From NCBI RefSeq assembly GCF_015291705.1, contig NZ_CP030050.1, positions 2,356,001-2,420,000 of the forward strand: 64,000 nucleotides of DNA, in the 5' to 3' direction. The stretch is from Bradyrhizobium arachidis (GTDB taxonomy: Bacteria; Pseudomonadota; Alphaproteobacteria; Rhizobiales; Xanthobacteraceae). Position numbers and translations under genes: made by a program. Every line of letters starts with the position of its first letter. Within the stretch, counting starts at the first letter, position 1. The notes under the pieces were generated by a model, which worked only from the letters and a program-made list of their open reading frames with translations, was not told the DNA's origin and did not search any database. This document shows positions 4,140-14,800 of the stretch, in pieces.

Positions 4140-4437
4140 GCGTGATCCGTCTGGGAGGTGCTGCGCCATGCGGGTGCTGCGGTCGCTATCCGTGCCGAAC
4201 TATGACCGCTTATCAGACTGAGCAGCGCTGGGCGAGGCATGAGTTCAGGCGCCGGCGACACGATCGCACCGAAATCGAACGGGCCATTCGGCGTTTGTCA
4301 CGCCTGGCAGGCTAGAAAAAATGGCGCTCTAGGCAGGTCAGATCGAAGTGTTGCTTGGCCCTTGGGAGGCGATCCGGTCGATCGACAAGGGCGCAAGCCG
4401 CTACTGCCACCAGCCCGGCCCGGAGGCCGCGCGGTGC

Positions 4438-4878
4438 TCAACCTCGGGCCTGCGCGGTCGTTGGCCCGGTTCTCAGACCGTCGCAATGTGCAAAGCTTGC
4501 AGTCTCAATCATCGATGAGCCGCCACCGTCAGTGCCTCGGATTGCCTGTAGAACAATCGTTTGTCGCGGAGTGAACGTGGCTTTGATGATCGGTATTGTT
4601 CGCTCGGGCTCGGCGCTGCCGCACATAAACACATCTAGCGCTGCGTAACTGCTTTCTGGCCAGGTATGAATACTGATGTGGCTTTCGGCTAGCAGCGCGA
4701 CACCAGTGACACCCCCGTGGGGCTCGAATTTGTGCAGATGCACATGCAGCAGTTTTGCTCCAGCCCGCAACGCAGCGTTGATCATCGTTTCTCTGATGCG
4801 ATCGGCGTCTTCCAAATGACGTGCTCCCCACAGATCGATCAGCAGGTGAGTGCCGTGGGACCGGCGGGCTTGGATCAT
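4438..4878 (-). CDS. speH: S-adenosylmethionine decarboxylase proenzyme (SpeH/SpeD type)
   Basis: A pyruvoyl-dependent enzyme that turns AdoMet into decarboxylated AdoMet, the aminopropyl donor. The protein is 146 residues from the ATG at 4878; an in-frame TTG at 4914 would add 12 residues. The N-terminal GTHLLIDLWG is the family start. LLAESHISIHTWPE contains the Glu-Ser self-cleavage site, whose Ser becomes the pyruvoyl group, and the catalytic His. DVFMCG matches the conserved Cys region. The C-terminus is about 20 residues longer than usual. No spermidine synthase lies nearby. Instead the gene is back to back with the peptide and radical-SAM operon, which suggests its product is used there rather than for general polyamine synthesis (inference). 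Confidence 0.9.
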   Translation of the reverse strand: MIQARRSHGTHLLIDLWGARHLEDADRIRETMINAALRAGAKLLHVHLHKFEPHGGVTGVALLAESHISIHTWPESSYAALDVFMCGSAEPERTIPIIKATFTPRQTIVLQAIRGTDGGGSSMIETASFAHCDGLRTGPTTAQARG

Positions 4879-5065
4879 CAGGGCAGACTCGCTGAAACGG
4901 TGGCGGGGTTGCAAGCCATAACCAGCGTCGCAACTTTATCCTGTGAATTTCCTAAAAGACAACTATCGCATTGATCTTCGTAAAGTCATCATGTGGACAA
5001 GGTACAATCAAGAGTAGTGACGGTTTTGTGAAACGTAATTCCCGCAGCGCAAAAGGAGAGCTTCG
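4879..5065 (+). promoter_or_regulatory. Divergent intergenic region between speH and the peptide gene
   Basis: About 190 bases with start codons leaving in both directions, so promoters for both must lie here. The right-hand side ends in a near-ideal ribosome binding site (AAAAGGAGAG, 5051-5060) six bases before the peptide ATG, much stronger than those of the downstream enzyme genes. That would give an excess of peptide over enzymes. I could not place -35/-10 boxes with confidence. Confidence 0.5.
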
Positions 5066-5248
5066 ATGTCCAAAAGCCCAGCCCCGCAAACATTGGCTCT
5101 TGAACTCACACCTGAGCAAAAGAAGCAATTGGAGGAATTCGCGAAAGCGACCGGCAGCAGGAAGCTGACAGCTAGCGCAGAGTTCGAGGCGCACGTGGAC
5201 ACCGGGAAGATCTCCCCGGCGACGTTCCTCGTTGGAAACGCCATTTAA
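5066..5248 (+). CDS. Candidate RiPP precursor peptide (60 residues)
   Basis: A 60-residue peptide directly ahead of a SPASM radical-SAM gene and behind the best ribosome binding site in the cluster. The first half is a charged, helix-forming leader-like segment (LELTPEQKKQLEEFAKATG). The second half, ending HVDTGKISPATFLVGNAI, is less charged and would be the core. It has no cysteine, so thioether or lasso-disulfide chemistry on Cys is excluded. Available side chains include Thr, Ser, Asn, Lys, His, Asp and two Phe. I find no Nif11, NHLP or PqqA signature. That this is a modified peptide is inferred from context; a small regulatory or structural protein is the alternative. Confidence 0.7.
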   Translation: MSKSPAPQTLALELTPEQKKQLEEFAKATGSRKLTASAEFEAHVDTGKISPATFLVGNAI

Positions 5249-5284
5249 AACGGCTTTACAGCCCTGTCAGCTCCGCAAGCGCGA

Positions 5285-6532
5285 GTGAAATTCATGCGCA
5301 AACGAACGCGGTCGCGCATCGAGGAATTCGGCTACACACTCGCGTTTGCGGACACTGGCGATATTGGTTTCTATTCAAAAGAGGCTGCCCCTCTGATCAA
5401 CGCAGAGGCGGAGCAGCAAGAGTTCGAACCCTTTAGATTAGATACGGTCCCGATTGGCGACAGCTTCCGTCTGTCAGCTCCGCTGATCGTGTGGTTCGAA
5501 ATCACGCGGTACTGCAATCTTCCGTGTCTGCACTGCTACGTGGAAGCCGGTCCGAAAAGAACAAACGAGCTGAGCACTTCCGAAATCTATGCGATACTTA
5601 ATCAGCTGAAGGCGAAGGGCGTCTTCTCGATCGTGTTCTGCGGAGGTGAGCCTTTTGCTCATCCCGATTTCATGTCCATCGTCAAATATGCTCACGATCT
5701 CGGCTTCGTCATTTCGATTGCTACCAACGGCACCTACCTCTCTCAATCGGTCATTGATGAAATTCCACGTGAGGAGTGCGTTGTCAGCGTGAGCCTGGAC
5801 GGGACCGAATCGCACAAGAAGATGCGGCATCTGTCAACTTATGAGGAAACGATCGAAAAGCTGAAACTACTCAAGAAGAACGGGATCCGCTCAGCCGTAA
5901 TGACGACTTTGACGAATTCCAATCTCGCTGAACTGGAGGAGATTTTCGAGTTCACTTCGCAGCAGGATCTGTTTTTCGGAGTGACGCCTTTTAGCCCTGT
6001 CGGGCGAGGAAAGCGGTTTCCCCATCTGACACCAGATGGCAATGTCGCACAAAGTGCCTCGCCTCTCTACTTTAGAAACTACCTCGATCGGATCGAAAAG
6101 ATGCAGAGGATTGGCCTTTGCGTTCAAAAGTTTCTGTCCTTCTCGTATAGGCTTTCGCACGCCATACAGCGGGAGTTTTGTGGCATCTCGCTCGCGTATA
6201 TTGCATCGGACGGCGAGGTTTACCCGTGCTCGGTCTGCATGTCCGCCAAGAAATACTCTGCAGGGACCTTGCGAGAAGCGAGCTTTGCCGAACTCTGGGA
6301 CACATCCTTCAAGGACATCAGGGCTGTATCCTTCAACGACTTCAAGGGTTGCGCCAGCTGCGACATTGGGAGCGCCAAACACGCTTGCGCTGGCAGATGC
6401 CCGGTTATGTCCGAGATCTACACCGGTGATCCATTGTTGTGCGGTGCGTCAGATTTCCTGAAGCAGGCCAATAGGTCAAACGGCGCGCGGATTGCAGCCC
6501 ATCTCCCGTCGGCTGAGACCGGCGATGGCTAG
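5285..6532 (+). CDS. Radical SAM/SPASM peptide-modifying enzyme
   Basis: A 415-residue radical-SAM enzyme (GTG 5285; an in-frame ATG at 5294 is also possible). Residues 1-65 form a small N-terminal domain that might help bind the peptide. CNLPCLHC gives the CX3CX2C cluster (C77, C81, C84), and FCGGEPF (119-124) is the SAM-binding loop. The C-terminal SPASM region carries C299, C315, C318, C356, C359, C368, C372 and C386, enough for two auxiliary iron-sulfur clusters, as in PqqE, MftC and sactisynthases. It starts 36 bases after the peptide gene and overlaps the next gene by 8 bases. Radical modification of the upstream peptide is the simplest reading; the bond made cannot be predicted. Confidence 0.88.
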   Translation: MKFMRKRTRSRIEEFGYTLAFADTGDIGFYSKEAAPLINAEAEQQEFEPFRLDTVPIGDSFRLSAPLIVWFEITRYCNLPCLHCYVEAGPKRTNELSTSEIYAILNQLKAKGVFSIVFCGGEPFAHPDFMSIVKYAHDLGFVISIATNGTYLSQSVIDEIPREECVVSVSLDGTESHKKMRHLSTYEETIEKLKLLKKNGIRSAVMTTLTNSNLAELEEIFEFTSQQDLFFGVTPFSPVGRGKRFPHLTPDGNVAQSASPLYFRNYLDRIEKMQRIGLCVQKFLSFSYRLSHAIQREFCGISLAYIASDGEVYPCSVCMSAKKYSAGTLREASFAELWDTSFKDIRAVSFNDFKGCASCDIGSAKHACAGRCPVMSEIYTGDPLLCGASDFLKQANRSNGARIAAHLPSAETGDG

Positions 6533-7631
6533 GCAGTCAATTGGGCTCCTGAAGGAGCGAGGAACGAGCGAGAGGCGGGTGCTCCTGCTGCCACACGAAA
6601 TCAAAACTTTGGTCCAGGATAGATACGATGTTATGGTCGAGGCCAAGGCTGCGGCATCGCTTGGAATATCCGACGAAGCCTACGCGGAGGCTGGGGCGCG
6701 CATCGTAACATCGCTCGAGGCATGGCAAGCTAATCTCGTCCTCAAGTATAAGGCCCCTCTACTCGAAGAATATAGATTCTTCCGCAAAGGGTCCCATCTG
6801 GCCGCATTCATGCACGCAGAGGGAAACCCTGCGCTGATGAAGGCACTAAAGACCTCGCAGCTCACCGCGTACGCTTTCGAATTTATTTCGCGCGCGGGCG
6901 CCTATCCGGCTTCGGTGTCGGATTCCGATATTGCCGGTCGGATGGCCGTGATCTATGCCGCGTACCATTTACAGTCTCATCTCGGCGGCCGAGGATTGCT
7001 GATGGGCGCAGCGCCGAACGGGCCTTTTCCTCGGGTGGTCATTATAGGCGCTGGAAATGTCGGGCGCGCAGCGGCGCAAACGGCGATCGCATTGGGCGCT
7101 CAGGTGACAATCTTCGTGCGCAACGCCACCAAGATAGCGCAAATTGAGCAGGAGTTCGGTAGGCGCGTGAGATGTCTGCTCAATCGCCGAGGTGTCCTGC
7201 GTGAGGAAGTCAAGAAGGCTGACGTACTGATCGGCGCAATCCTGATTTCCACCTTCGATACGCCCGCGATGGTGGACGAACGCATGGTGTCCACCATGAA
7301 ACCTGGGTCGGTGATCGTGGACGTCACTTGCGGCTACGGGAAGGGATACTTGCCGTCCTTTAAGAGCACAACAAGCCATCGCGCGCCAGCGCGGCTCATA
7401 AACAGCGTCTTGCACATCAAGATCGATCATCTGCCTGCATCGGTACCGGTAACAGCATCTAAAGCGACATCCGAGCGTGTGATCAGATATGTCCGCAAGT
7501 TGGCCGATGTCTGCTTGCGCGGCGGTCGGTCAAGAATGATCGAACGATGCATGATAGCCAAGGCCGGCGAGCTCGTTCATCCAGAGCTCATTCGGCATGA
7601 TGCCTTAGAAACGCGAATGCCAATCGCCTAA
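6525..7631 (+). CDS. Alanine dehydrogenase/PNT-family oxidoreductase with altered active site
   Basis: A 368-residue member of the alanine dehydrogenase / N5-(carboxyethyl)ornithine synthase family. The ATG at 6525 sits in an ATGGCTAG overlap with the upstream stop, so translation is coupled; an earlier in-frame ATG at 6492 is less likely. GLLKERGTSERRVLLLPHE is the N-terminal family motif. LKYKAP holds the substrate-binding lysine (near K74-K76), FMHAEG the conserved His (H97), and IGAGNVG (174-180) binds NAD(P). The loop that in alanine dehydrogenase carries the second catalytic Asp reads VDVTCGYG (265-272), so that Asp is replaced. I infer a different substrate, such as reductive amination or opine-like coupling on the pathway product, but this is unproven. 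Confidence 0.78.
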   Translation: MARQSIGLLKERGTSERRVLLLPHEIKTLVQDRYDVMVEAKAAASLGISDEAYAEAGARIVTSLEAWQANLVLKYKAPLLEEYRFFRKGSHLAAFMHAEGNPALMKALKTSQLTAYAFEFISRAGAYPASVSDSDIAGRMAVIYAAYHLQSHLGGRGLLMGAAPNGPFPRVVIIGAGNVGRAAAQTAIALGAQVTIFVRNATKIAQIEQEFGRRVRCLLNRRGVLREEVKKADVLIGAILISTFDTPAMVDERMVSTMKPGSVIVDVTCGYGKGYLPSFKSTTSHRAPARLINSVLHIKIDHLPASVPVTASKATSERVIRYVRKLADVCLRGGRSRMIERCMIAKAGELVHPELIRHDALETRMPIA

Positions 7632-7648
7632 ACGATGTGGAGTTCGGT

Positions 7649-9211
7649 ATGTTCTCGCAATTTGAGACGAGCCCTTCAAGGATCCATCCGGAGGTCCTGC
7701 GCTACTTCCTCTCCAAACAGAGCGAATTCGGGTGCACGAACGTCTTGCCTGGGCACCTTCCGAAGACCTCGCATTCAATCGAGATGGCTAAGAACGCGAT
7801 GACGCTCGACTTTGCGATATCCAAGGCCTATCGGATACCGTTCTATGCGACCTCAATTGAAAGGTTTGCCGGCGAGCGGCGATTGCCAGACGGTCAGTGC
7901 GGGTCCGTGAATCTGGATATGCCCGGCTGGTTTACGGCGGATTCGGCCTACTCGTCCCACCTCGATAGCATCCGGCGCGCGACCAGAGAGGAACTGATGA
8001 GCCGCGTGCGAAGCGCGTTGACGAACTGCATAGATTCTCTGCATCTTTTTTGTCCGAAGCAGTGCAATTTGGCGTGTTCGGGCTGCTATGCGTCCGCCGT
8101 TCCGATCGACAAGCACCCGTATATGGAAGAGCAGATAACCTCCTATTTCGATGGAGCAGCCGGCACCATCTCCCAAGCTCGCGCACTGGGAGCCAAGGTG
8201 ATACAGACATCGGGGGACGGTGAAGTAACTGTGTTCCCACGGTTCTTCGATCTGCTGGAGCTCGTCGCAGCATCCGGCATGCAATGGCTCATCTTCACTG
8301 CAGGATTGATATTTTCAAGCGAGGAAGCGGCTGCCGGTCATTGGCGAACATACGGCCGTTTTTCGAGCTCTCACATCCGTGAACAGATTGCTCGCAATAT
8401 TGAGCGCTTCTCTGCTGCCGGCGACAGCAAGCCGACTGTGCGCGCGTTCATCGCGCAGATCGAGGAATACAAGGATGTCTTGCAGATCTATCATTCCATT
8501 TGGAGCACATCGAGCCCCAATAATTCAAGCTGGCGCAATCCGAGAACCGGAGAATACGACTATCGTGAGGTCGTGCTTACTGATCACGCGCTGGAGCTGC
8601 CAACGAGCCTGCTGGACCTGATGGCGGTGTTCAAAGGGAACCATCGCAGCCGTTTCGGTATAGAGTTTCCCGTCAGCGATGCTTCCGCTCGAGATGTTCC
8701 TGCGTTAGCCACGTTTGTCGCTCACGAAGGCCTTCGGAGCTACTTCGAGCCTGTCATAAGGACGGGACGGGCTAGACGGGGAAGAATAGGCGGACAAAAG
8801 TCGTGGTCCTGCGAAAGTGAGGCCGTAGCTTCGCACGATGTGGACAAGCTGCTTGCAAGAAAGGAGTGCTCGTTTCGTTTCCTCCATCAGCCGATCGCGA
8901 AGTTCAGAGCTGGTGACGGATTCTTTGCCAGCCCAGGCACCGGTGTCGACTTGGACGATCTGGCAAGCCTGGGCGTGCTAGAAGGATTGAGTGTAGGTGA
9001 CAATCTGTTTGGTGCCATCCATTCGCCTTTGATAGTCAATGCCAACTACAATTACACGTCTGGTTGCAAATGCAATCACTTCTCAGAGCGTCTGTTGTTC
9101 GATAGAGCCAACCTCGCCGCTGAATGGCAGAACCTCGCTAACCTATCTTCAGCCGATATCACGGCCGCCGATCTCGTCAGTCGCTTGGGTGAGACGAGCA
9201 ATGAGCTCTAA
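7649..9211 (+). CDS. Second radical SAM enzyme, large, no clear SPASM domain
   Basis: A 520-residue protein from the ATG at 7649, which has GGAG six bases upstream; an in-frame GTG at 7637 is possible. The first 130 residues form an unrecognised domain. CNLACSGC (C139, C143, C146) is the radical-SAM cluster motif, followed by the TIM-barrel region with QTSGDGE as the SAM loop. The C-terminus lacks the SPASM cysteine spacing but ends with SGCKCNHF, which might bind a metal. It lies 17 bases after the dehydrogenase gene and overlaps the following methyltransferase by 11 bases, so it is part of the same operon. Substrate unknown; the peptide or an intermediate made from it is the obvious candidate. 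Confidence 0.82.
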   Translation: MFSQFETSPSRIHPEVLRYFLSKQSEFGCTNVLPGHLPKTSHSIEMAKNAMTLDFAISKAYRIPFYATSIERFAGERRLPDGQCGSVNLDMPGWFTADSAYSSHLDSIRRATREELMSRVRSALTNCIDSLHLFCPKQCNLACSGCYASAVPIDKHPYMEEQITSYFDGAAGTISQARALGAKVIQTSGDGEVTVFPRFFDLLELVAASGMQWLIFTAGLIFSSEEAAAGHWRTYGRFSSSHIREQIARNIERFSAAGDSKPTVRAFIAQIEEYKDVLQIYHSIWSTSSPNNSSWRNPRTGEYDYREVVLTDHALELPTSLLDLMAVFKGNHRSRFGIEFPVSDASARDVPALATFVAHEGLRSYFEPVIRTGRARRGRIGGQKSWSCESEAVASHDVDKLLARKECSFRFLHQPIAKFRAGDGFFASPGTGVDLDDLASLGVLEGLSVGDNLFGAIHSPLIVNANYNYTSGCKCNHFSERLLFDRANLAAEWQNLANLSSADITAADLVSRLGETSNEL

Positions 9212-10052
9212 CATTGGTGCTTTGGGTAAAGCTGGCTCGGGTCCAATAGGCGGAAATCACCCCCTTCCAATCGGCTATAGGGAGAGAAGTGCATTCTATG
9301 ATTGTGAATTTGGCTCGTTCCCGGATGAAGTCGAGTTCATCGCCTCTGTGGGGCAAATGCGGGGGGGAAATGTCCTCGAGGTGCCGTGCGCTTGCGGCAG
9401 ATTGACGCTCCCACTTTCGCGCCGCGTCGAGCGCATCACTGCGGTCGACCGTGACCCGAAAATGCTTCTGCAGCTGCAAAGGCGTTTGGCGGCACGCGGC
9501 GGAATCGAGAACGTAAAGACTGTTCTTGAGGACATGCGGTTTCTCAAGCTTTCCGCCATGTTCGACCTCATCGTGTGTCCGCGCGAGTGTTTTCAGCTTC
9601 TCGGCAGCGAGACCGAGGCACTGGACGCCTTATCATCATTCAAGCGTCACATGTCGAAGCGAGGGTGCCTGGTTCTAGATCTCGCGACGTTCGCCCGGTC
9701 GAGCGAACCTACTGAGGATGGGCCTGAATACTTCGCGGCCGGACTCGGTGACAACGAACTCATCGCAGAGTGGGAAAGAGGCCTGGACGATGGTAGCCTC
9801 CTCAGGCGATCGCGATCCCAACGCCTCCGTTCAAATCAGCTGCTTGAGCTAACGTTCTTCTACACTCTCGTAAATGGCGCGTTGACCGAAGAGTTTGTCT
9901 CGACGGTCGAGTTAAGGATCTACTCGCTTTGCCAGATATCCGCCCTGCTGCAAGCCGCTGGGTTTCGGATGGTTGAAGCATATGGCAATTACAGGCGGGT
10001 GCCCGTCAGCGAAAACTCTGCCCGCCTGCTCATCGTGGCGGAAGCTACGTGA
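9201..10052 (+). CDS. Class I SAM-dependent methyltransferase-fold protein
   Basis: A 283-residue protein; the ATG at 9201 overlaps the radical-SAM gene by 11 bases, and a longer frame upstream only covers that gene. VLEVPCACGRLTLPLSR is motif I of a Rossmann methyltransferase, with Pro-Cys-Ala-Cys in place of the usual glycine run. AVDRDP is the acidic strand-2 motif and MFDLIVCPRECFQ fits motif IV. The closest general type is the small-molecule methyltransferase group. Because an AdoMet decarboxylase is encoded nearby, an aminopropyl transfer using decarboxylated AdoMet is an alternative role (inference). Confidence 0.75.
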   Translation: MSSNIGALGKAGSGPIGGNHPLPIGYRERSAFYDCEFGSFPDEVEFIASVGQMRGGNVLEVPCACGRLTLPLSRRVERITAVDRDPKMLLQLQRRLAARGGIENVKTVLEDMRFLKLSAMFDLIVCPRECFQLLGSETEALDALSSFKRHMSKRGCLVLDLATFARSSEPTEDGPEYFAAGLGDNELIAEWERGLDDGSLLRRSRSQRLRSNQLLELTFFYTLVNGALTEEFVSTVELRIYSLCQISALLQAAGFRMVEAYGNYRRVPVSENSARLLIVAEAT

Positions 10053-10849
10053 TGCGAAGCCGAACTCAATATGTTGGCGGGTGGTTGGGTGAGGACGAAA
10101 GCCGGGTGAAGTCCTCCAGCGCTCCCTGGAGGGACGCGCTGTCACACACCAGGCTTGATCAAGAGCATGTTGATTACTTCTCGCAGTACCGATCCCTGTA
10201 TTTCAATGAATCCTTCCGGGACGGGCAGGGGACCGACGAAATTCTCGAGCTCATCGCGGGCGTAGAAGAGGTCGAGTGCTGGCTTGATCTTGGTTGCGGT
10301 CCAACGACCTTGTTCTGGTCTATTCCCGCAAATGTCCGAACGAGCATCGATTGCTGCGACAAAAGCGCCGAAGCACTCAAGGTGCTTCACGATTTCATTC
10401 TATCGGACGACATCCCTCCCTGCTACCAGCAAGTGCTAGCAAGGTTCGGGCGTGACCACCATCACTTGGCGTGCGTGCGGGAGAAGATCGACAAGTTCAT
10501 CATCCATGATGTGCTCAGCACGCCCTTTCGTGACGTACCCGGCCCGCAGCACGACTTGATTACGGCAATTGGTCTGTTTGGGCTTTGCAAAAGCCCAGAA
10601 CGCTACGCATGGGCTCTTGGAAACGCCGCGGCTCAACTCGCTGAGGACGGCTACATGATCGGTGCCGACTGGGTCAGGAGCGCGCGTTTTATCGACGCGG
10701 AAGGGCATGATAACTCATATATCAACGAAGTATCTATCAGGCGCGCCGCCGACGAACACCGGCTAGACGTACTGTCTCTTAGCAAGGTTTGTATTCGGGG
10801 CGACCCGCTTTATTCGACCGTGTTCGTCTGGCTCATGCGCAGAGAGTGA
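10052..10849 (+). CDS. Class I methyltransferase-fold protein, last gene of the peptide cluster
   Basis: A 265-residue protein whose ATG shares one base with the previous stop (TGATG); the preceding GTG at 10049 is also in frame. CWLDLGCGPTTLFW (76-89) is motif I, with the glycine-rich loop intact. IDCCDKS is the acidic motif. Later, DLITAIGLFGLCKSP fits the strand-4 region. The family has some resemblance to small N-methyltransferases, but I cannot name the acceptor. It closes a run of six genes that begins with the peptide, with no transporter or protease among them. Confidence 0.72.
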   Translation: MRSRTQYVGGWLGEDESRVKSSSAPWRDALSHTRLDQEHVDYFSQYRSLYFNESFRDGQGTDEILELIAGVEEVECWLDLGCGPTTLFWSIPANVRTSIDCCDKSAEALKVLHDFILSDDIPPCYQQVLARFGRDHHHLACVREKIDKFIIHDVLSTPFRDVPGPQHDLITAIGLFGLCKSPERYAWALGNAAAQLAEDGYMIGADWVRSARFIDAEGHDNSYINEVSIRRAADEHRLDVLSLSKVCIRGDPLYSTVFVWLMRRE

Positions 10850-10895: not shown

Positions 10896-11396
10896 CTATT
10901 GCGGTGAAGATTTGATGATCTGCAGCAAGTTCAGTTGTTTGACCCAGCGGCTACGACGACCTTCTTGAGGTGAAATGACCTGGAGAGGACCGGTCCCGCT
11001 CGGCAATGGGGAGCCATCTTGCGCATCTGCCACCAGGAACGTGCCGTTATCAAACTCGGGCAGAGAAATAATCGCGACGAAACCATCAGCGCCTTGAACG
11101 TGGAGATATTTTGCGACGTCGGCACCTTTCAGGTCTTGCTTGAGCGGCACCCCCGCTTTGTTCAAAAGGACAGCCAGGTCAACTCCTGAATAGGTCGTAC
11201 TTTTCCCGGCCGAATCTGTGACGGTGATCGATGTGTGAGGAAGTGCCTGAAAGTCGGGTTCAGAGAAGGACAGTGGAGTCGTCACTTGTCCATCTACCGT
11301 CAAATAAGCAGATGACGTTGCAGTCTGCGCCTGCGCGCTTGCTGCAAAGAGAAAAAGGAGAAGCGCCGTACGTTTCGTACAGAACACGATCATCAT
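10896..11396 (-). CDS. Exported molybdopterin-oxidoreductase-like domain protein
   Basis: A 166-residue protein with a signal peptide (ALLLFLFAASAQAQ). The rest resembles the small oxidoreductase molybdopterin-binding domain (the fold shared with sulfite oxidase and YedY): LTVDGQVTTPLSFSEPDF, YSGVDLAVLLNKAGVP and GPLQVISPQE are typical stretches. It lacks the cysteine that holds molybdenum in the true enzymes and is only about one domain long, so it is probably non-catalytic or a ligand binder. GAGAGG just upstream serves as ribosome binding site. It is divergent from the cytochrome gene at 11531. Confidence 0.62.
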   Translation of the reverse strand: MMIVFCTKRTALLLFLFAASAQAQTATSSAYLTVDGQVTTPLSFSEPDFQALPHTSITVTDSAGKSTTYSGVDLAVLLNKAGVPLKQDLKGADVAKYLHVQGADGFVAIISLPEFDNGTFLVADAQDGSPLPSGTGPLQVISPQEGRRSRWVKQLNLLQIIKSSPQ

Positions 11397-11530
11397 CCTC
11401 TCTTTAAAGGTCAGGGCCTACTTCCAAGCTCTGAGCGAAAACTTACTGGGAATCAATTCGGGCTTGCAATGGCGAATTCGCGCTGTAATTGTATCGGAAT
11501 GAAGTGGTGCGTCATAGAGGAAAGAGGCTC

Positions 11531-12889
11531 ATGCGCGTTATTCAACATTTAGGAAGTCGTATATTTCGCAACGTCCTTTTTGCGACCACGATCACATGCC
11601 TTGCTCCAACACATGGACATGCCGCTAGCGGTTGTGCTCCCGGATCGACTTGCCTCTCGGTGACAGGGAAGGGCGTTCCGGCTCCTGAGCCGGCACCTTT
11701 CATTGCGCAATGCACCGGGGCCTTTCCAGACTTCGTCACGCCATCAGCGATGGTACCGAGCGCTGGTCCGTGGTTCAAACTGTCCCAATCGTACCCTACG
11801 GCTGTCCCGGCGAACGACGCACCGTGGTCGAATATCGACTTCAAGGACGGAGTGACGGGCGCCGATGCTTACCTCTATGCCCTGCGAGACTATGCATTTG
11901 ATGGCATGATCGATGCCGACTTCAAGCCGGAAGCTAACAACGTTCGGCCCTGGTTTCACATGCCGCTGATGAATTTTGGACCGCGTGCACGAGAGCCGAT
12001 GCGCGGCTTGACCTCAGAACGTTCTGTGACCGGACCGGAGCTCGGTCTCAAGCCAGGAGTGACCATTCACAATTATGCGGTCGGCTTCTACAATGCAGCG
12101 GGTGCCGTCACGATCGGACAGGTCTTGGGCGGCGCTTCGCCCGATCTAGCAAAAGCTCAATTCCCCCAAGGAGCAATGACCTTCAAGATCTTGTTCAGCG
12201 ACGTTACTGCGAATGACTTTCAGGATTCTGACGTCTTGTCGGGTGCTCCGCAGTGGACGATCCGGACAGCTGCCGGCCCCCAAACCGTGCGCCTCATGCA
12301 GATGGACGTCGCCGCGGTGGATAGTCGTTCGCCAACCGGGTGGGTCTTCGGGACTTTTGCTTTTGACAGCAATGCAACTGATACCTCCCCGTGGCGGAGG
12401 CTCCGGCCGGTAGGCCTTTCATGGGGAAATGACTTCGGCTTCACACCCGCTGACCAGCAAGCAGGCAAGAAGCTGACCGAAACCACGATCTCGGACCAGG
12501 CGCCTGCTTACGCAGCCTCCCATTTGGGATGGGCGGGGCGCGCGAACGGGCCGGTCGACAATCCGATTTCGGGGTGCTTGAGTTGTCACAGCACCGCCCA
12601 ATTGCCGTCGGCCCCCATTACATTTTCGAGCGCCTGTACGACGGACGCTCAGAAGATGCTTTGGTTCAGAGATCTGAAGGGTAATCAGCCGTTTGGAGGT
12701 GTGGATGCAAGCTGCAATCCCATCACCAGCGCACCTCCGCCGAAGCCTCTCGACTTTTCACTCCAATTATCGGTCGCAGTCCAGAACGTGGTGCAGTTTG
12801 GTGATGCCAATCCGTGTTCGCCATCGGCCTCTATCATGAACCTTCGGGTCGACGACCATCCCGGAGAGCACCCGCGTATTGCGCGCTAG
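11531..12889 (+). CDS. Exported c-type cytochrome-like protein, single CXXCH
   Basis: A 452-residue periplasmic protein. The ATG at 11531 follows a strong GAGGAAAGAG site; a frame reaching 11489 adds only filler. The N-terminus (FRNVLFATTITCLAPTHGHA) is a signal peptide. A single heme c motif CLSCH lies at residues 349-353, late in the protein and inside a Cys-containing C-terminal part. The first 340 residues contain no heme motif and match no domain I can name. The same intergenic region drives the molybdopterin-fold gene, so the two may act together in the periplasm (inference). Confidence 0.65.
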   Translation: MRVIQHLGSRIFRNVLFATTITCLAPTHGHAASGCAPGSTCLSVTGKGVPAPEPAPFIAQCTGAFPDFVTPSAMVPSAGPWFKLSQSYPTAVPANDAPWSNIDFKDGVTGADAYLYALRDYAFDGMIDADFKPEANNVRPWFHMPLMNFGPRAREPMRGLTSERSVTGPELGLKPGVTIHNYAVGFYNAAGAVTIGQVLGGASPDLAKAQFPQGAMTFKILFSDVTANDFQDSDVLSGAPQWTIRTAAGPQTVRLMQMDVAAVDSRSPTGWVFGTFAFDSNATDTSPWRRLRPVGLSWGNDFGFTPADQQAGKKLTETTISDQAPAYAASHLGWAGRANGPVDNPISGCLSCHSTAQLPSAPITFSSACTTDAQKMLWFRDLKGNQPFGGVDASCNPITSAPPPKPLDFSLQLSVAVQNVVQFGDANPCSPSASIMNLRVDDHPGEHPRIAR

Positions 12890-12976: not shown

Positions 12977-13700
12977 TCAAGCTGTCAGGTCTTTGACGAA
13001 GTCCTTCTCGTAATAGCTCTTGGCTTCGAGCCCGAGAAATTTCGAACTCGGTTCGGGATTTCTGGCGATCGTCTGCAACTCTTCGATCTGCGGTGGGGTT
13101 GCAGGCAGGAATCCAGCAAGCCTATGTGCTCGCTCGACTTCTCCCGCATATAATGCGGTGCGCTGAGACCACTGGAGCTTGAGCTCCTGCTCGAAGCGGG
13201 CGTCCATGTACGGACGTGCAATAATGAGCTCTGCCAGCAAATTGGCATCAAGAAAGGCTTAATTCCCTGGGCGGTGAGGTCCTTGTGAGACCAAGCATCG
13301 CCAATGAGACACGCTCCGGTGTCTGACACGGCGCGGATGAACGATTGTTGATTCAACGCCCTTCGGAAGCCCTCACAGAGCGTGGCCTGGAGCGGGAGCG
13401 TGACGAAGTTTGCTATTCGAGTTGCCGCTTCGCGCAGAAAACGTTGGGGACCAGCCTTGAAACTGTCGAAGAGAGCCGCCGGTCGCTGAATGACGTAGAT
13501 CATGTCTCCGTCTGTGGTGGGAACACGGGGTACCCCACTCGTCCACAAGCATGTAGCAATCACTCTGGACCTTATTTGGTACATACTTGTAGAGCGTGAA
13601 GTGATCGAGTGATGAAACATTGAGTATTGGACCTGGAGCCGCGATGCCACGCTCGACATCATGCCGTCGGCGGCTACAAGGAAACGGGCAGCCACCGTCC
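12977..13700 (-). pseudogene. FAD-dependent monooxygenase remnant, frameshifted and N-truncated
   Basis: The minus strand encodes FLVAADGMMSSVASRL, the GADG-type motif of aromatic/flavin hydroxylases, and further on ACLIGDAWSHKDLTAQGI, the GD motif that contacts FAD. Near 13245 the frame shifts and the protein continues as DANLLAELIIARPYMDARFE to the stop at 12977. The N-terminal FAD-binding Rossmann part is missing altogether: upstream of the first motif the sequence runs straight into a P-loop fragment. The gene is dead by deletion plus frameshift. Confidence 0.68.
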
Positions 13701-13832
13701 GACAAGAGCCTCGGACAGACGCGCCGTGCGAGTCGACTTTCCCGTGCCCGGTGCCCCCAGTACGCCGAGCTTAATTGTCCCGCTCGGCGGGCCTGGCCGA
13801 AATCGGTCTAAAATATCGTTGAGACTCGTCAT
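13674..13832 (-). pseudogene. P-loop NTPase 5' fragment
   Basis: From an ATG at 13832 the minus strand reads MTSLNDILDRF, then LGVLGAPGTGKSTRTARLSE, a textbook Walker A (GAPGTGKST), then stops after EALVGRWLPVSL. Only about 52 residues remain. The 3' part of the gene is replaced by the monooxygenase remnant. The fragment resembles the N-terminus of an AAA-type or nucleoside-kinase-like ATPase. Confidence 0.6.
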
Positions 13833-13868
13833 ACCGGCATTTTTTCTACTACACGTTAGATTAGAAAC

Positions 13869-14195
13869 ATGGCGTCCAAAAAGCAAATTGTCGCACGCGC
13901 GCTAATCCCGGACTCGTTGGGACGGATTTTCGTGTAGAAGCGCACAATGAGCCGTCGCCTCTTCCCGGTTGCTGGGAGCTCGTCGGCGGTCAGGTTGATG
14001 AAGGCGGAGACGTGTTCGCTGCGCTGAACCGAGAAATCGAAGAAGAGACTGGTTGGAAACTAGGACGATCATAGAAGAGCTCACCGTCAAGCCTTGGTCC
14101 AGCAACGGAACGGAGTACGAGGAGCGGCAGTTCATCGTGACCGTTGATGGCGAGCTTGAAAGGACGATGTGCCTCTTTCCCCGTAGAGCGCGCCA
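13869..14195 (+). pseudogene. Nudix hydrolase remnant with two frameshifts
   Basis: Joining three frames gives a Nudix protein: an N-terminal strand (KKQIVARALIPDSLGRIFV), a frame change near 13935, then the Nudix box LVGGQVDEGGDVFAALNREI followed by EEETGW, then a second shift near 14062 into EELTVKPWSSNGTEYEERQF. The box keeps the REUxEExGU half but has Gly where the first catalytic Glu is expected. It is divergent from the P-loop fragment. Both are probably debris of one former locus. Confidence 0.65.
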
Positions 14196-14800
14196 GAATG
14201 AATCATGTTCAACGTTTGATCGATCAAAGCGATACGAGCATTTAGCGAGGGCGCGCAGGCGTGCCAGGCCTTCTCAACGCGGCCCTCGAGGATCCGGTGG
14301 TCCGCGTTTGCAACCGGCTCGATAAACGTGCGAATTTCAGCCGGCGAAAAGCTGAAATACGCCGGAATGGCGCCTTTCATCATGAGCTTTGCCTTGCCGT
14401 CCGCGGCATTACATTCCGAACAGACGAGCTCGCGAGGGAAGCTGGATACCAAGTGTTCGACGGTATCGGCTATTTCTCCACATCCTGACGGAAGATCCAC
14501 GGTCCAGCGGTCCCCGAACAACGTGCGACCTCGACGCCCCATAATAGTCCCGCAGGTGATCGTGATGCTCTTCCAAATTGGCGAGCAGAATACCGCGACC
14601 GGAAAGGCGGAAGAGTATCGACTTTGCTGCGCCGGCAAACGGGACAGAACCAATTCTGTTCGACAAGAGCCCAATTCTGATTGAGGTCGAGACCCTTCGC
14701 ACCGAGTCTGAGAACGGCAGCCTTGGTTTGGCTGCTGCTCCATCTTCCATTTCGGTCTGGAAAGCAGGATTCCATTTCATCGTCGGGCAGTGTTGAAGGG
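14170..14800 (-). pseudogene. Possible HNH-type nuclease remnant
   Basis: Pieces in three minus frames line up: NWFCPVCRRSK (a CXXC knuckle), ILLANLEEHHDHLRDYYG, then RELVCSECNAADGKAK followed by IPAYFSFSPAEIRTFI. CXXC, paired histidines and CXXCN with DG/AK resemble the zinc-stabilised HNH endonuclease layout. At least two frameshifts separate the parts, so no intact protein can be made. The call rests on motif spacing only. No recognisable gene lies in the 14800-15057 stretch that follows. Confidence 0.4.

Follow-up and report, generated by a model that had tools for sequence, protein, structure and literature searches.

A candidate pathway for a ribosomally made peptide, with two radical-SAM enzymes, in a low-GC region of a Bradyrhizobium genome

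What is made by a compact set of seven genes in Bradyrhizobium arachidis, and is a 60-residue peptide its starting material? The question was raised by an earlier note on the 64,000-nucleotide stretch analysed here (the window, positions 2,356,001-2,420,000 of contig NZ_CP030050.1, a single-contig genome of 9.87 Mb). The set was proposed there to make a product of the ribosomally synthesised and post-translationally modified peptide (RiPP) kind, and the coordinates, 36-base gap and overlaps reported were correct on re-examination of the sequence. Six plus-strand genes occupy 5066-10849 with a largest gap of 36 bases. The first, preceded by AAAAGGAG, encodes the precursor-peptide candidate (5066-5248, 60 aa, no Cys, Tyr or Trp) and is followed, after those 36 bases, by the radical-SAM/SPASM enzyme rSAM1 (5285-6532). 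The gene for the AlaDH/PNT-fold dehydrogenase, AlaDH-like (6525-7631), begins at ATG 6525 and overlaps rSAM1 by 8 bases. rSAM2 (7637-9211), of a radical-SAM family without a name, starts 5 bases past AlaDH-like. MT1 (9201-10052, ATG 9201), a class I methyltransferase of 283 residues, overlaps rSAM2 by 11 bases, and the methyltransferase-fold gene MT2 (10049-10849) starts at either ATG 10052 (overlap 1) or GTG 10049 (overlap 4). A homologue of the S-adenosylmethionine (AdoMet) decarboxylase SpeD (4438-4914, minus strand, pyruvoyl type, 158 aa) is divergent from this operon. The 151 bases between speD and the peptide gene (4915-5065), a putative promoter region, are 80% identical in G752, a relative of B. 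arachidis. The gene set, the operon layout and the coding constraint on the peptide are shown by the sequence data. The genes probably form a RiPP pathway that acts through rSAM1 on the 60-residue peptide with a new set of enzymes, the later chemistry being proposed.

The peptide gene was compared with the roughly 80%-identical locus of G752. Its ratio of nonsynonymous to synonymous substitution rates (dN/dS) was 0.12, and the seven genes ranged from 0.07 to 0.21 (rSAM1 0.07, AlaDH-like 0.10, rSAM2 0.17, MT1 0.20, MT2 0.13, SpeD 0.21). The 30 substitutions in the peptide gene were distributed 7/3/20 over codon positions 1, 2 and 3 (binomial P 2e-4). Openness of a reading frame alone is poor evidence, because 15 of 35 unrelated open reading frames (ORFs; at least 50 aa, same stretch) likewise stayed open in G752. 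The peptide is 100% identical in two further loci (L022 and L023) and 88% identical in that of G752 (L021), and its final 17 residues, which end in ..FLVGNAI with a terminal Ile, are unchanged across all four. The peptide gene is thus conserved and protein-coding within one genus. Its loss from homologous clusters, which the earlier note had named as telling against a peptide pathway, is not seen within Bradyrhizobium, where 4 of 4 loci carry it. A search of 5.8 billion proteins returned two clusters, its own and that of G752; shared 5-residue words were required, and relatives without one would be missed.

rSAM1 had been called a SPASM radical-SAM enzyme, and both the Radical_SAM (91 bits) and SPASM (37.8 bits) matches exceeded the Pfam cut-offs. 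In an alignment of the window protein with 21 of its 79 matches, the SPASM-type cysteines C315, C356, C359, C368, C372 and C386 were present in 22 of 22 rows and C299 in 21 of 22. The predicted model (pLDDT 91.8) resembles RiPP maturases in fold, its closest solved folds being SkfB and SuiB at 18-20% identity. The N-terminal part, a predicted beta-beta-beta-alpha-alpha segment, falls inside the range aligned with both; this range is known by its end points only, and the segment had no PqqD or RiPP recognition element (RRE) match in Pfam. Relatives of rSAM1 at 48-60% identity were found in Tatlockia, Actinoplanes, Collimonas and Duganella. Four loci with an rSAM1-like gene, three on rhizobial plasmids (L017, L018, L020) and one on an IMG/VR contig (L026), were set aside as a different system, in which a B12 radical-SAM enzyme and a pyridoxal phosphate (PLP) decarboxylase accompany the gene (for L020 and L026, identified in part from annotation or by eye). 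No convincing common peptide motif was found across these four. A SnoaL/NTF2-like protein lies near the rSAM1-like gene in the three plasmid loci, and in Sinorhizobium meliloti GR4 the set also includes a PqqD-like gene and one for a CPBP protease. G538 has another possible RiPP cluster (L025, 8477-14055; gene names by eye), in which a peptide containing the motif DGV(T/S)LAMVGAASA twice comes after a radical-SAM/SPASM gene and before hydrolase, tautomerase-like, TrmO-like, HemN-like radical-SAM and methyltransferase ORFs.

rSAM2 gave no Pfam match at E 0.1. The earlier view of it as a second radical-SAM enzyme was borne out by structure comparison, which placed it among radical-SAM folds, and by a Cx3Cx2C motif (C143, C147, C150) that did not vary among the 25 sequences aligned, namely the window protein and 24 of its 37 matches. 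C411, C477 and C479 are also invariant. The 37 matching proteins came from a search that scored the 8000 candidates with most shared words, and relatives of rSAM2 lie at 41-53% identity. In Streptomyces P9-2B-2, the gene after the rSAM2 relative encodes a methyltransferase, which BLASTP did not match significantly to either MT1 or MT2. On the opposite strand of this Streptomyces plasmid (L010, 14908-18400) lie a gene of 50 aa, a metallo-beta-lactamase (MBL)-fold protein and two kinase-like proteins (the last two by eye), possibly one cluster with the rSAM2 and methyltransferase genes.

The alanine dehydrogenase-like call held for the fold of AlaDH-like, with Pfam scores of 100 bits for the N domain and 154 bits for the C domain of AlaDh_PNT. 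Aligned with three alanine dehydrogenase chains, it retains residues corresponding to Arg15, Lys75 and His96, whereas the Asp of the IDQG motif is replaced by Gly and Pro242 by Ser. Its NCBIfam alanine dehydrogenase score was 263 bits against a cut-off of 391.85. Mutation of His96 and Asp270 is reported to abolish activity of the Mycobacterium tuberculosis enzyme (PMC4691113); the M. tuberculosis numbering of Asp270 was transferred by us from the three other chains. Judged from its sequence, AlaDH-like is not a standard alanine dehydrogenase, because the essential Asp270 position is Gly. The description of two methyltransferase-fold genes stood firmly for MT1 (Methyltransf_25, 45 bits), of which residues 44-281 of 283 align with CypM. 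For MT2 only sub-threshold Pfam methyltransferase matches were obtained (best 22.3 bits, cut-off 27), with no match in NCBIfam or the Protein Data Bank (PDB).

Distribution of the cluster was narrow. At 1e-10, rSAM2 was found in 4 of 265 Bradyrhizobium genomes, namely the window's own, G746 and G880 (99% identity) and G752 (81%), and in these four all seven genes are collinear and without internal stops. At 1e-3, 3 of 296 genomes of the family matched, strongly in the own genome and with 26.5 and 20.3 bits in the other two. Among 398 genomes of the phylum, rSAM2 matched in the own one only. rSAM1 was found at 1e-40 in 1 of 397 genomes of the order (its own) and in 2 of 398 of the phylum (its own and G538). 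One scan of the genome collection gave one locus (L006). A Duganella relative was found in 0 of 234 genomes of the family of G538 at 1e-50, which is uninformative because no positive genome is known in that family. Plasmid records held 297 matches to rSAM1 (52 spanning most of the query, all below 60% identity) and three to rSAM2 (one spanning most of the query), with no match for the peptide or MT2. A partial relative in Rhizobium sp. K102 (L011, 26% coverage) and an unannotated locus of S. lavendulae (L027) were not used. IMG/VR held one relative of rSAM1 at 31% identity (that of L026) and no match for rSAM2.

In the proposed pathway, substrate, order of steps and every reaction are inferred. 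The 60-residue peptide would be made first, and rSAM1 would bind its N-terminal half via the N-terminal recognition segment and chemically change the conserved C-terminal part (..VDTGKISPATFLVGNAI). AlaDH-like could then carry out an NAD-linked oxidation or reductive amination of the altered residue, and rSAM2 a second radical change. MT1 would N-methylate the resulting amine, and MT2 may add a second group, either methyl or an aminopropyl from AdoMet decarboxylated by the neighbouring SpeD. A bolder version, which we regard as a long shot, is a new RiPP class in which rSAM1 radically cleaves or oxidises the peptide C-terminus, a repurposed alanine dehydrogenase aminates it instead of an aminotransferase, MT1 methylates, MT2 aminopropylates with decarboxylated AdoMet from a dedicated SpeD, rSAM2 founds a new maturase family, and the polyamine-like, positively charged tail acts in legume symbiosis.

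Several points weigh against a RiPP pathway. The strongest caution is that the full set is known from one Bradyrhizobium lineage only; conservation was tested within one genus, because the genome, plasmid and IMG/VR searches turned up no homologous cluster in an independent lineage. Pfam and NCBIfam revealed no gene for a protease, a transporter or a separate RRE in the operon, and rSAM1, AlaDH-like and MT1 fell below every NCBIfam cut-off (best 25 of 91, 82 and 29 matches). Two unnamed PDB methyltransferases outscored CypM for MT1 (54 and 46 against 34 bits), and MT1 also matched the PADLOC model mad2 (54 bits). The AlaDH fold and AdoMet decarboxylases usually belong to small-molecule enzymes, and the first Foldseek matches of rSAM2 were the sugar and nucleoside enzymes DesII and BlsE. 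The earlier proposal of a peptide-derived product stands in part: the coding peptide and the maturase-like predicted fold of rSAM1 agree with it, whereas action of all the enzymes on the peptide is put in question by rSAM2 relatives outside such clusters. Within Bradyrhizobium, the radical-SAM proteins were not found to belong to a known non-peptide pathway, the other outcome named as adverse.

Alternatively, there could be two modules, the peptide and rSAM1 (perhaps with MT1) making a RiPP and rSAM2, MT2, AlaDH-like and SpeD building or modifying a small molecule; they would be transcribed together since their products are linked to each other or serve a common use. DesII as top match of rSAM2, the occurrence of the 37-protein family elsewhere and the lack of an adjacent peptide gene in Streptomyces P9-2B-2 (a single context read) all fit such a division. 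Among the matches listed (37 for rSAM2, 79 for rSAM1), no contig outside Bradyrhizobium carried both genes, which were together on one Bradyrhizobium contig only; this is a weak test, in which only the longest contig per 90% cluster was covered and even the pair of G752 was hidden. The tight, overlapping operon, collinear in 4 of 4 loci, argues against two modules, and we consider them rather unlikely. The 60-aa protein could also be accessory or regulatory and not a substrate, with a non-peptide product derived, for example, from polyamines or amino acids. Its LTXXQ match is weak, at 16.6 bits against a Pfam cut-off of 24.3, and it lacks Cys, Tyr and Trp, the residues most often attacked by known SPASM maturases. 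The position of its gene immediately before rSAM1, the 17 identical final residues, and an rSAM1 fold nearest to peptide maturases with the N-terminal segment in the aligned range make this role improbable.

A further alternative concerns SpeD only and is compatible with a RiPP reading of the remaining genes, so that its probability is not to be added to the others. The divergent AdoMet decarboxylase described earlier was recovered on the minus strand, with 116 bits for PF02675 (AdoMet_dc) and 127.5 bits for TIGR03330 (cut-off 75.65), and is the sole AdoMet_dc match in the genome. It resembles class 1b SpeD, and its ESH, HTWPE and CG motifs fit an AdoMet decarboxylase, with the Ser, His and Cys catalytic residues of solved enzymes retained. 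A strong SpeE partner was, however, not found in this genome, where two partial PF01564 (spermidine synthase) matches scored 24.7 and 24.6 bits (cut-off 22.9). SpeD might stand outside the pathway, either serving polyamine synthesis or having been neofunctionalised to decarboxylate ornithine or arginine. SpeD homologues without SpeE are reported to be ornithine or arginine decarboxylases in the tested cases (PMC10407285), and the divergent orientation points the same way. Against this, the motifs are retained, speD is the operon's neighbour at all four loci, and homology to G752 ends just beyond its 3' end, save for one 75-base patch. A separate role is possible but doubtful.

The cluster region is low in GC and looks horizontally acquired (0.55-0.57 in the cluster, compared with 0.62-0.69 past the 30-kb point of the window). 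A large symbiosis-type island is likely because samples from 1.60 to 2.356 Mb had a GC of 0.55-0.60 and nifH-family genes gave a single strong match, at 1.72 Mb; its edge is not sharp (0.59 at 2.45 and 2.50 Mb). From the 3' end of speD, pieces of homology to G752 run on to 14.16 kb. The 75-base patch to the left (window 4216-4290; L021 10191-10571) lies in a part that, by eye, seems to encode the C-terminal end of a flavin monooxygenase. To the right, a molybdopterin-oxidoreductase-domain protein (minus) and a CxxCH-motif protein (plus) at 10896-12889 adjoin the cluster in 4 of 4 genomes, with 82.7% and 86% identity in G752. They are followed at 12985-14325 by fragments of flavin-monooxygenase-like, small NTPase-like and NUDIX-like genes (by eye). 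In G752 (L021 19161-19880; L047 538-1626), the NTPase-like and NUDIX-like genes are longer open ORFs of 216 and 151 aa, and the window lacks about 915 bases that this locus has. To the left of the window, at a distance of about 5-12 kb (L044 8310-14867), tyrosinase-like, cupredoxin-like, flavoprotein and LodA-like ORFs (by eye) perhaps form a quinone-cofactor oxidase set.

If the favoured RiPP reading is true, the cluster would represent a class with an enzyme combination not found described, and may yield a new kind of natural product. It would give a function to the unnamed rSAM2 family, which also occurs in actinobacteria, allow a test of whether peptide modification can be supplied by an AdoMet decarboxylase, and point to a still uncharacterised metabolite in these root-nodule bacteria. 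The earlier note knew of no RiPP class with this gene content, and neither such a class nor the enzyme combination was found in a literature search that lay mostly outside subscription papers. With no Cys, Tyr or Trp in the peptide and enzymes that score below the family cut-offs tested, the cluster cannot be assigned to mycofactocins, daptides, sactipeptides or ranthipeptides. Sactipeptides and ranthipeptides have a core Cys for the thioether, which is absent here. SkfB links Cys of SkfA and SuiB links Trp of SuiA; rSAM1 shares their fold, as predicted, and their SPASM cysteines, and its N-terminal segment lies within the aligned range, but identity is 18-20%, the SkfB model scores 69.1 bits (cut-off 300) and the peptide is without Cys or Trp. 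Mycofactocin (MftA-MftC) is similar in its short peptide before a SPASM enzyme, and MftC was the top NCBIfam model of rSAM1 (127.6 bits, cut-off 265). The mycofactocin precursor ends in Val-Tyr, whereas the peptide here ends in Ile, and no relatives of MftD, MftE or MftF were recognised in the operon with NCBIfam. Daptides (MpaABCDM) are reported to have an invariant C-terminal Thr (PMC10036551). They differ from the present cluster, which has a C-terminal Ile and radical-SAM enzymes, and in which no PLP aminotransferase or DUF-RRE protein was recognised among the seven gene products (rSAM2 and MT2 being without a Pfam family over the cut-off). The daptide methyltransferase NF041820 was nevertheless the top NCBIfam model of MT1 (69.9 bits, cut-off 175), and, as in daptides, a dehydrogenase and a methyltransferase could cap the C-terminus with an amine.
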